NCBI GenBank assembly: GCA_020432045.1
Contig: JAGQHB010000055.1
Coordinates: 1 to 55,003, forward strand
Direction: 5' to 3'
DNA from: Dehalococcoidia bacterium
GTDB lineage: Bacteria > Chloroflexota > Dehalococcoidia > Tepidiformales > Tepidiformaceae
Length of the DNA: 55,003 bases
Of this stretch, positions 4,927 to 10,006 are shown one piece after another; position 1 is the first letter of the stretch, and the number at the start of each line of letters is the position of its first letter. Below the pieces are notes generated by a model. That model had not been told where the DNA came from and did not search any database. It saw only the letters and a program-made list of their open reading frames with translations. The position numbers and the translations under genes were made by a program.

Positions 4927-6159
4927 ATGACGACGGAGTTGCTGGATCTTGGGATTGACCGCGGGGAGCTGACTGAGCGCCAGGTGACATTGATCGAGCG
5001 GGCGGCGCGATTGAGCGACGACTTTGCCACACGCGCGGCCGAACATGACCGGGAGGGGACGTTCGCAACCGAGAATTTCGCGGCGATGCACGAGGCGGGA
5101 TATATGAAGCAGTGCCTCGACCCCGCGTTTGGGGGCGAGGCGGTGACGCTGGAGGAGCTCTGCCTGACGCAGGAGCGGCTGGCGTGGGGCGATGCGTCGA
5201 CAGCACTGGGCGCGAACATGCACAGCTTCTTCTGCGGCATTACGACGGAGATGTGGCGGGCGGACCCGCAAGAGCAGCGTTGGCCGATGCTGTTCGCGAT
5301 GGTTTCGCAGATGAAGTTGACGCTTGGGGGAGCGATTTCGGAGCCGGGGAGCGCTGATCCACTGAACTTCCCGGCCGGATCCGTCGAGCGCGTGGGCGGT
5401 GGGTTCAAGCTGAACGGGATCAAGGTATTTGGCAGCAACTCGGAGATCACACCGTTCTTCTTCTACAGCGGTGTATTGGAGGAAGACGGGGAGAAGAAGG
5501 TGTTGTCGTTCCAGGTGCCGAAGGGGACGCCGGGTGTGGAGGTGGTGAAGGACTGGGACACGCTGGGGATGCGGGGCACGGGCAGCTACACGATCGTGTT
5601 CAAGGACTGTGTCGTGCCGGAGATGTTCAAGGCGAACGAGACGCCCTACGGGGGATCGTTCGGGGCGGACGGGTTTGCGGCAGCGTTCCTGTGCTGGTTC
5701 GAACCGACGGTGGCTTCGGTCTACGTGGGGATTGCGGCAGCGGCGCGGAACATCGCGGTTGAGGCTGTGAAGGGTCGGGACAGGCTGCCCTTTGGCCCGG
5801 TACAGGACTATCCGGGGACGCAGTACGCCGTGGCGGAGATGTACATCGGGATCGAGGCGGCGCGAGCGTTTATCCGGCGGACGGCGCAGCGGCTGGCGGG
5901 GCCTGAAAGACGTGATGCGCAATCGCTTGCGCTGGCGATATCGACGAAAGTCTTCGCAACGGACCAGGCGGCAAAGGTCGTGGACCTGGCGATGCAGACG
6001 GTTGGAGGCGGGGCGTTCTTCAAGCGGTCGCCGTTGGAGCGGATGTATCGTGATGTGAGGGCAGGGAAGATTCACCCGCCGAGCCATTACGACGCTTTGG
6101 AGATCATCGGGAAGGCGGGGCTGGGGATGACGGAGCGGAAGACGCCGCGGTTCCGGTAG
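4927..6159 (+). CDS. Acyl-CoA dehydrogenase family flavoprotein, atypical active site
   Basis: A 410-residue protein with full acyl-CoA dehydrogenase architecture: alpha domain (about 25-130), beta domain with GGAISEPGSADP (about 135-250) and C-terminal alpha domain with the MQTVGGGAFFK FAD/tetramer segment. Where ordinary ACADs carry the catalytic Glu in an EGT/S motif, this one has HPPSH (383-387), so the usual base is missing. HPP-type members include proteins closer to flavin monooxygenases such as DszC, so dehydrogenation should not be assumed. A GAGGAG lies 8 nt before the ATG. It sits 88 nt after the hydrolase gene and is probably cotranscribed. Confidence 0.8.
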   Translation: MTTELLDLGIDRGELTERQVTLIERAARLSDDFATRAAEHDREGTFATENFAAMHEAGYMKQCLDPAFGGEAVTLEELCLTQERLAWGDASTALGANMHSFFCGITTEMWRADPQEQRWPMLFAMVSQMKLTLGGAISEPGSADPLNFPAGSVERVGGGFKLNGIKVFGSNSEITPFFFYSGVLEEDGEKKVLSFQVPKGTPGVEVVKDWDTLGMRGTGSYTIVFKDCVVPEMFKANETPYGGSFGADGFAAAFLCWFEPTVASVYVGIAAAARNIAVEAVKGRDRLPFGPVQDYPGTQYAVAEMYIGIEAARAFIRRTAQRLAGPERRDAQSLALAISTKVFATDQAAKVVDLAMQTVGGGAFFKRSPLERMYRDVRAGKIHPPSHYDALEIIGKAGLGMTERKTPRFR

Positions 6160-6167
6160 AAGGCGCC

Positions 6168-6212
6168 TTCACCCCCTGGCCCCTCTCCCCCTATCGTGGG
6201 CGAGGGGGAGGA
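6168..6212. repeat. GC-rich palindromic intergenic repeat, copy 3
   Basis: CACCCCCTGG lead, then CCCTCTCCCC and GGGCGAGGGGGAGG. It lies just after the ACAD-like stop codon and might assist termination there, although no T-run follows. Confidence 0.65.
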
Positions 6213-6302: not shown

Positions 6303-6330
6303 TTCACACGGCATCGGGGCGTGCTATACT
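6303..6330 (+). promoter_or_regulatory. Promoter of the nusA operon
   Basis: TTCACA (6303-6308) and TATACT (6325-6330), separated by 16 nt, form a near-consensus housekeeping sigma promoter. The predicted transcript starts near 6337, leaving a 5' leader of about 57 nt. Confidence 0.75.
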
Positions 6331-6351
6331 TGGGACAGCAACTTCTACCTG

Positions 6352-6376
6352 AAGTGGGCCCGCGGCCCACTTTTTT
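6352..6376 (+). terminator. Terminator-like hairpin in the nusA leader (candidate attenuator)
   Basis: A perfect 9-bp inverted repeat (AAGTGGGCC, loop CGC, GGCCCACTT) runs directly into six T residues, between the promoter and the nusA Shine-Dalgarno. It has the form of an intrinsic terminator inside the leader, so a fraction of transcripts should end before nusA. Because NusA affects hairpin-dependent termination, autoregulation is plausible. That is inference. Confidence 0.7.
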
Positions 6377-6393
6377 GTTGCGGAGGACCCTGG

Positions 6394-7914
6394 ATGAAAA
6401 ACGACTTCCTCCTCGCCATAGGCCAGCTGGCCAATGAGCGCAATCTGCCGCGCGACATTGTGTTCGAGGCAGTGGAGGCCGCCCTGAGCTCGGCGTACCG
6501 GCGAGAGGGCGAGAACCAGCCCAATATTTTCGTGAAGATTGATGGCGACACGGGCGATCTCCGCGTCTACAACCAGATGGCGGTGGTGGAAGAGGTAGAG
6601 GAGCCGAACCTCGAACTCTCCGTCGAGGATGCGCGGCGCTACAAGCAGGACGCACGTCTCGGCGATGTGCTCGATTTTGAGATGAAAGTTCCGGAGAACG
6701 CGGGCCGGATCGCAGCGCAAACGGCGAAACAGGTGATCTTGCAGAAGATCCGCGAGGCCGAACGCGATGCCGTGTACGACGAGTACCGGGACAAAGAGGG
6801 TGAAATCGTCGTCGGGACGATTCAGCGCATGGAGGCCCGGCAGGCAATTGTGGAGATCGGACGAGGCACGGAAGCGAGCCTGCCGATCAGCGAGCAGGTG
6901 CGAAACGAGCACCTGCGGTCGGGGGCGCGGGCAAAGCTCGTGATCCTGCGCGTTGAAAAGGCGACACGTGGCCCACAGGTGGTGGTGAGCCGTGCTCACC
7001 GGCTGCTAATCAGGCGGCTGTTTGAGCTGGAAGTGCCGGAGATCCAGAACGGGACGGTGGAAATCAAGTCCATCGCGCGCGAAGGGGGCCACCGCAGCAA
7101 GGTGGCCGTGCATTCACGAATCGCAAGCATTGACCCGCTGGGCGCCTGTGTGGGGCCGCGCGGAAGCCGGATTCAGAACATTGTGAACGAGCTTGGCGGC
7201 GAGCGGATCGACGTCATCAAGTGGGACCCGGACCCGGCGAAGTTCGTTGCGAATGCACTGAGCCCGGCCGAGGTGCTCGATGTTCAAATCGACATTGACG
7301 AGAAGCGGGCATCGATTGTGGTGCCGGACCGGATGATTTCGCTGGCGATCGGAAAAGAGGGGCAGAATGCCCGCCTCGCAGCGAAGCTGACAGGGTGGCG
7401 AATCGACATCCAGACCCAGGCTGCTTCGGAGCATCCTGACGGGGTGGCAGAAGCGCCGTCCGTATTCGTGCCATTCCAGCCTGGTGAAGAGCCGGACATC
7501 GACGTCATTGCGGAAGCGGAGGAGGTCGCTGCGGCGGCGGAGATTGCCGGGGATGCGGCAGCGACGGAAGAACTCGAGCCGGCGACGGCCGAGGCGTCCC
7601 TCGCCGAGACTCCGCGGTCGGAAGAGGACGAGATCTCGTTTGCACTGGCTGTCGCACAGATGCCGGTGCCGGACCGCGACGAACGCGAGTCGGAGGATTA
7701 CGGCGAGGAAGAGGACGAGGAAGAGTACGAAATCCCGTCCATGATCGACGTCGAGCAGCGGCCGACGGCAATCCGGTTCGCCGAGGACCTGCTGGGACCG
7801 CAACGTGAAACGCCGGCGGCGCCCGCTGCGAAGGGCAAAAAGGCGCGGCGAGCACCGCGGTTCCAGGAAGAGGAAGAAGAAGACGAAATCGACTACACGG
7901 GACGGATCCACTAG
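6394..7914 (+). CDS. nusA: Transcription termination/antitermination factor NusA
   Basis: A 506-residue NusA that binds RNA polymerase and nascent RNA to modulate pausing, termination and antitermination. Order: N-terminal RNAP-binding domain (1-125), S1 domain (about 130-200, GEIVVGTIQRMEARQAIVEIG) and two KH domains (GPRGSRIQNI near 252, IGKEGQNARLA near 317). A non-homologous, strongly acidic tail follows from about 345 to the end, rich in Glu and Asp (EEEEEDE near the C-terminus), making the protein about 130 residues longer than Bacillus NusA. GGAGGA lies 6 nt before the ATG. It opens the ylxR-infB-rbfA-truB operon with no rimP in front. Confidence 0.97.
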   Translation: MKNDFLLAIGQLANERNLPRDIVFEAVEAALSSAYRREGENQPNIFVKIDGDTGDLRVYNQMAVVEEVEEPNLELSVEDARRYKQDARLGDVLDFEMKVPENAGRIAAQTAKQVILQKIREAERDAVYDEYRDKEGEIVVGTIQRMEARQAIVEIGRGTEASLPISEQVRNEHLRSGARAKLVILRVEKATRGPQVVVSRAHRLLIRRLFELEVPEIQNGTVEIKSIAREGGHRSKVAVHSRIASIDPLGACVGPRGSRIQNIVNELGGERIDVIKWDPDPAKFVANALSPAEVLDVQIDIDEKRASIVVPDRMISLAIGKEGQNARLAAKLTGWRIDIQTQAASEHPDGVAEAPSVFVPFQPGEEPDIDVIAEAEEVAAAAEIAGDAAATEELEPATAEASLAETPRSEEDEISFALAVAQMPVPDRDERESEDYGEEEDEEEYEIPSMIDVEQRPTAIRFAEDLLGPQRETPAAPAAKGKKARRAPRFQEEEEEDEIDYTGRIH

Positions 7915-7927
7915 TCGCGGAGGGGAC

Positions 7928-8230
7928 ATGAAGACGGCACAAGCGCTACGGCCACGCCGGGTACCGGTGCGGACGTGTGTTGGATGCCGTGTGTCCGAAG
8001 GCAAGCGAGGGCTGGTGCGGGTGGTGCGGACACCCGACGGGCGAGTCGCTGTCGACCTGAGCGGCAAGGCGAACGGGCGCGGAGCGTACGTACACGAGGA
8101 GCGAACTTGCTGGGAGAATGCCCTGCGAGGGGGTAAGATAGGACGCGCACTGCGTACTACCCCGGCTCTGGAAGATATCGAGGCGTTGCGTGCCTTTGCG
8201 GCAGCGCTTCCCACGGAAGAAGGCGATTAA
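7928..8230 (+). CDS. ylxR: YlxR/RnpM family RNA-binding protein (DUF448)
   Basis: A 100-residue YlxR-family protein in its standard place between nusA and infB. It has the signature RTCVGCR (16-22), then RLVRVVR-like and GRGAYVHEERTCWENAL. The family binds RNA, and in Bacillus the protein (RnpM) has been linked to RNase P. The start is the ATG at 7928, behind a purine-rich GCGGAGGGGA. The gap to nusA is 13 nt and to infB 3 nt, so translation is probably coupled. Confidence 0.93.
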   Translation: MKTAQALRPRRVPVRTCVGCRVSEGKRGLVRVVRTPDGRVAVDLSGKANGRGAYVHEERTCWENALRGGKIGRALRTTPALEDIEALRAFAAALPTEEGD

Positions 8231-8233
8231 TTC

Positions 8234-10006
<1,773 letters not shown>

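Follow-up and report, generated by a model that had tools for sequence, protein, structure and literature searches.

A conserved terminator-like hairpin in the nusA leader of Dehalococcoidia, a class in which RimP was not found

In the parts of Naville & Gautheret 2010 drawn on here (PMC2965389), rimP is ranked first among genes with predicted attenuators. The rimP-leader described there is very widespread and is characterized by a motif and an operon, with rimP as the usual first gene: a terminator with a conserved GGGc...gCCC stem and a T stretch lies ahead of the nusA-infB operon. RimP and NusA were both weighed as effectors and NusA was favoured, the authors citing a repression of the operon by NusA. 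The authors saw no antiterminator in the general form, and in several Gammaproteobacteria they place one in a second, upstream terminator. Two other systems are close. According to a statement in a 2025 review that cites Mondal 2016 (PMC12288461), NusA of B. subtilis controls its own expression by stimulating termination in the 5' leader of its gene. In the relevant passage of an RNA-seq study of S. agalactiae, transcription of rimP-nusA-IF2 stops at a predicted intrinsic terminator 31 nt downstream of the start (PMC4448216). NusA autoregulation by leader termination has thus already been proposed, and is not a new idea.

We analysed a 55,003-nt stretch of DNA from a Dehalococcoidia bacterium (contig JAGQHB010000055.1; hereafter the window), in which nusA follows directly behind a promoter and a leader at 6303-6393 and heads a nusA-ylxR-infB gene order (Table 1). 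This arrangement, and with it the missing rimP ahead of nusA, had been proposed in an earlier note made from the sequence and is confirmed by the Pfam domains and by the order of the genes. The leader length of about 57 nt given there also holds, taking the predicted start near 6337 and the ATG at 6394. The same note had called the promoter strong. An extended -10 is conserved: the -10 is kept in 132 of the 137 upstream regions of the class (Dehalococcoidia) that carry GTGGG, with the TG extension in 115 of these 132. The -35 is poorly kept (a match of at least 4/6 in only 66), so that any strength rests on the -10. Among named genome contigs, the best NusA matches were to Dehalococcoidia and other Chloroflexi MAGs and to Tepidiforma, and our assignment of the window to the class rests on them. 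The upstream neighbour is an unrelated, co-directional acyl-CoA dehydrogenase gene that ends at 6159. Between this gene and the nusA promoter lies a CCCTGGCCCCTCTCCC-like segment (6174-6189) that can pair with GAGGGGGAGG just downstream; other such segments in the window are at 168, 362, 14568, 14582, 47285, 54782, 54795 and 54931, giving 9 matches with at most 3 mismatches vs 2.09 expected. We take these segments to be possibly a REP-like repeat.

Table 1. Features of the nusA locus in the window.
Feature	Detail	Positions	Strand	Basis
Promoter	TTCACA 6303-6308, 16-nt spacer, TATACT 6325-6330	6303..6330	+	sequence
Extended -10	TGC-TATACT	6322-6330	+	sequence, TGC preceding TATACT
Untranslated leader		6337..6393	+	start predicted from -10 spacing, candidate only
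Candidate competing hairpin	ACTTC/GAAGT, 6341-6345 with 6351-6355	6341..6355	+	suggestive only
Leader terminator	stem 6352-6360/6364-6372, loop 6361-6363, T run 6371-6376, then G	6352..6376	+	
Likely ribosome-binding site	GGAGG	6382..6386	+	sequence
nusA		6394..7914	+	Pfam NusA_N, S1, KH_5, KH_1
ylxR	ATG at 7928 picked by us; open frame starts at 7805	7928..8230	+	Pfam PF04296
infB		8234..10006	+	Pfam

The leader of the window carries the hairpin AAGTGGGCC-CGC-GGCCCACTT (6352-6372), with nine perfect pairs followed by TTTTGTT. The stem, GTGGGCC...GGCCCAC, contains the conserved GGGc...gCCC of the rimP-leader. Its base is formed by two A-U pairs, which together with TTTTTTGTT give weak terminal pairs and a distal interruption of the U tract. 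The hairpin had been described as a 9-bp stem plus T6: the nine pairs stand, the T6 does not, as two T were counted twice (T6 goes with a 7-bp stem, T4 with the 9-bp stem). Taken alone, the fold of the 60-nt leader is only a modest improvement on shuffled sequences (z -1.84; 9 of 200 as good). It is the comparative evidence, not the fold of a single leader, that decides that the hairpin is beyond chance. The minimum-energy fold adds an outer stem, GCAAC/GUUGC, adjoining GGAGG; as a functional part this stem was set aside, being absent from many members of the family.

We located nusA in 143 of the 148 genomes of the class and read 142 upstream regions. With a sequence-blind hairpin rule, a terminator-like hairpin was found within 220 nt upstream of nusA in 132 of the 142, vs 4 of 710 control sequences obtained by shuffling 2-mers; the check for the same hairpin in relatives that the earlier note had proposed thus came out positive. 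In 127 of these 132 structure-only hairpins the 5' arm contains GTGGG, and in 121 the 3' arm also contains CCCAC. Searched as a motif, GTGGG..CCCAC with a T tract lies within 220 nt of nusA in 121 of the 142 genomes; of the other 21, seven belong to one family (f21) and most of the rest have variants, such as GCGGG/CCCGC (G038), GTCGG/CCGGC (G016) or a C-rich tail behind the motif (G069, G136). In three of the 132 (G010, G013, G110) the rule picked as best a different hairpin or one with another sequence; G010 and G013 have the GTGGG motif besides. The rule gave no hairpin in 10 of the 142 genomes (G004, G015, G147 and the seven of f21); the element is therefore dispensable. All together, the leader hairpin is real and well conserved, and no accident.

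The seven f21 genomes without a GTGGG terminator (G020, G054, G073, G088, G103, G117 and G128; loci L237, L239, L218, L217, L233, L230 and L231) have another conserved GC-rich leader, in most of them around GTCGGGTGGGGGTCGGGC, behind a TATAGT -10; G140, also an f21 genome, carries the usual GTGGG motif.

The GTGGG..CCCAC-NTTTT pattern has a single match in the genome of the window, at the leader site. Searched genome-wide, this stricter pattern was found in 105 of the 148 class genomes: in 96 it stands in front of nusA on the same strand, and elsewhere there are 30 matches in 24 genomes. Since a backward control pattern gives 31 matches (our own count from the table), those away from nusA are near chance level. 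A further conserved site in some class genomes (GTGGGCTCTTACCCCAC, in family f34 and G078; GTGGGCTCTTACCCCACCTTTT) was considered as a second target and rejected: in both loci fetched (L324, 1400-1781; L325, 1387-1771) it falls inside an RNase P RNA (RF00010) encoded on the other strand.

The pairs below the core covary. Covariation was read from 130 rows found by the core pattern, which itself fixes three core pairs, and the shuffles ignore relatedness, so that the numbers are not probabilities. The first pair below the core is paired in 126 of the 130 rows (shuffled mean 104.2, maximum 113), as A-T in 95, G-T in 13, G-C in 10 and C-G in 8; the next is also paired in 126 (mean of the shuffles 118.6, maximum 123). 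For the third and the fourth pair the count does not exceed the highest value of the shuffles (109 vs 113; 89 vs 89). An apparent invariance of core pairs 1, 4 and 5 was dropped as a finding, the search pattern fixing these letters, and the structure-only count was used instead. Structure and sequence both matter. Terminal A-U and G-U pairs dominate in the class hairpins. Behind CCCAC the T run most often has six letters (81 of 123), and the next base is usually G or A; in 93 of 123 rows the run is interrupted by one non-T and resumes with TT, and TTNTTT is present in 101 of 123, the T richness being partly by construction because rows were picked for at least 5 T in 11. In the part of the literature consulted (PMC8060035), terminators that depend on NusG and NusA are described as having a weakly paired stem base and a U tract with an interruption; judged from their sequence, the class hairpins resemble such factor-dependent terminators.

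The earlier note had treated the lack of rimP as local to this operon and had proposed to search for the gene elsewhere in the genome. The lack was borne out: RimP_N (PF02576) had no match in the window's own genome (96.9% complete). That it is local was not, since RimP_N was found in none of the 148 class genomes, the window's own included; the RimP C-terminal domain (PF17384) was found in 0/148 as well. Of these genomes, 102 have at least 90% completeness and at most 5% contamination, and of 14 named genomes that served as positive controls, 10 gave a match in each of the two RimP searches, with 10 and 8 of them above the cut-off. In a draw from the phylum, class members included, RimP_N was found in 23 of 201 genomes; these 23 have 24 RimP loci, with a NusA match just downstream of rimP (weak in L134). 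The absence of rimP is thus the rule in the class and usual in the sampled phylum, and no oddity of the window.

The motif itself extends beyond the class. Among RimP-negative genomes outside it (about one per family), 42 of 47 have the motif within 250 nt of nusA. At 61 further NusA loci, some of them cut short upstream, GTGGG..CCCAC was found within 1200 nt upstream of nusA in 14: in 13 it lies at -514 to -933, far enough away for a rimP gene to fit between, and in one, an Anaerolineae MAG (L069), at -89. No convincing motif was found ahead of rimP in the 24 RimP-bearing Chloroflexota loci, with one loose match that has a poor T tail (L120). Of five RimP-bearing Chloroflexota loci of one family (f86, L115-L119), four (L116-L119) have a GGGGCC-type hairpin with a T tract, located 70-79 nt ahead of the RimP_N match; this hairpin is possibly a variant of the leader.

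In the window's family the leader may hold a second structure. In the window, an ACTTC/GAAGT hairpin can arise while the terminator is still open, and it occupies the 5' bases of the four lowest terminator pairs; in stepwise folding it coexists with the upper part of the terminator stem up to the completion of the 3' arm. It is much weaker than the terminator. Other examples in the family are ACCTG/CAGGT in G033 and CATTTC-TTCG-GAAGTG in G107. At least four of the eight arm bases are paired in 20 of the 20 scored family leaders vs 58 of 116 others; taken one by one, only 3 of the 20 family leaders reach p < 0.05, and 11 of the 116 others, and the competing hairpin was therefore rejected as a class-wide feature. 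The fold energy of native combinations is lower than that of swapped ones (-6.4 vs -5.7 kcal/mol, p = 0.025, 18 unique leaders). In both tests the leaders are related and kinship is uncorrected, and at the family level we regard the competing hairpin as suggestive.

We file the window element as a member of the rimP-leader with a departure, not as a full match. Like the rimP-leader (PMC2965389), in the features given above, it has a terminator-like hairpin and a T stretch in the 5' UTR of the nusA-infB operon, with the conserved stem; unlike it, nusA stands directly behind the leader, and a candidate competing hairpin is present where the described general form shows no antiterminator. As the review states it for B. 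subtilis (PMC12288461), intrinsic termination would act in the 5' leader of the NusA gene; that organism has a NusA depletion strain, whereas the evidence here is comparative. With S. agalactiae (PMC4448216) it shares a very short leader with a terminator; there, in the passage cited, rimP is in the operon and termination was observed by RNA-seq. No Rfam 15 model reached the gathering threshold, either in the window or in 12 loci that included Bacillota; the other matches were far below it and at chance level. Rfam presumably has a rimP entry. RF01770 is named in passages of PMC5955585 and PMC5471319.

We consider it probable, on comparative sequence grounds, that the element works as a rimP-leader-type transcription attenuator of nusA-ylxR-infB, through which NusA feeds back on its own synthesis and on that of IF2. 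RNA polymerase would start about 20 nt upstream of the hairpin core; once the hairpin is completed, with the interrupted U tract in the hybrid, part of the polymerases would stop at about +40. NusA, perhaps with NusG, would help the weak-based hairpin to complete and prolong the pause, and abundant NusA would thus lead to less NusA and IF2 being made. In the window's family, the upstream segment able to pair with the lowest part of the terminator arm may leave the terminator leaky as long as NusA has not acted. In Tepidiforma relatives the attenuator could then be a two-state switch in which NusA tips the competition at about +40, right after promoter escape, although we hold this extension to be doubtful. 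We infer the transcription start, the occurrence of termination, its partiality and NusA as its effector. Autoregulation, suggested earlier from the terminator alone, is favoured by the comparative data and probably right, and the S. agalactiae RNA-seq result fits such a feedback.

Other readings were weighed against NusA feedback. The leader terminator might be read by another factor, YlxR, IF2 or an unnamed protein binding GUGGG/CCCAC, and the GTGGG in 127 of 132 structure-only hairpins is more sequence constraint than a stem needs; we hold this to be unlikely, given that Naville & Gautheret cite repression of the operon by NusA, in the part referred to above (PMC2965389), and that NusA autoregulation is stated for B. 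subtilis (PMC12288461, same statement). RimP itself is disfavoured as effector because it was not found in the class, which leaves NusA as the leading candidate and YlxR, IF2 or another protein as alternatives. It is improbable, too, that the hairpin is a factor-independent element, either a constitutive terminator of transcription from the co-directional acyl-CoA dehydrogenase gene that ends upstream or a fixed damper: it lies downstream of the operon's own conserved -10, and since the core starts 17-27 nt from the predicted transcription start in 110 of 136 leaders, it would stop the operon's own transcripts too. An effect on translation or mRNA stability, in which the hairpin with GCAAC/GUUGC occludes or positions the ribosome-binding site, would agree with the minimum-energy fold, which puts this outer stem beside GGAGG. 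However, the stem is missing from many family members and across the class the distance from the core start to the nusA match varies between 31 and 190 nt, and we think this reading very improbable.

Beside the feedback already proposed by others, two points are fresh here: rimP is naturally absent, and in the window's family the leader may have two states. A class in which RimP was not found and which still keeps the leader at nusA is a natural experiment, and speaks against RimP and for NusA or another product of the operon; most sampled genomes of the phylum are alike in that RimP was not found and the leader stays at nusA. With its very short, promoter-proximal leader, the locus may serve as a test case for NusA-stimulated termination, for which a relative with a completely sequenced genome, Tepidiforma flava, exists.
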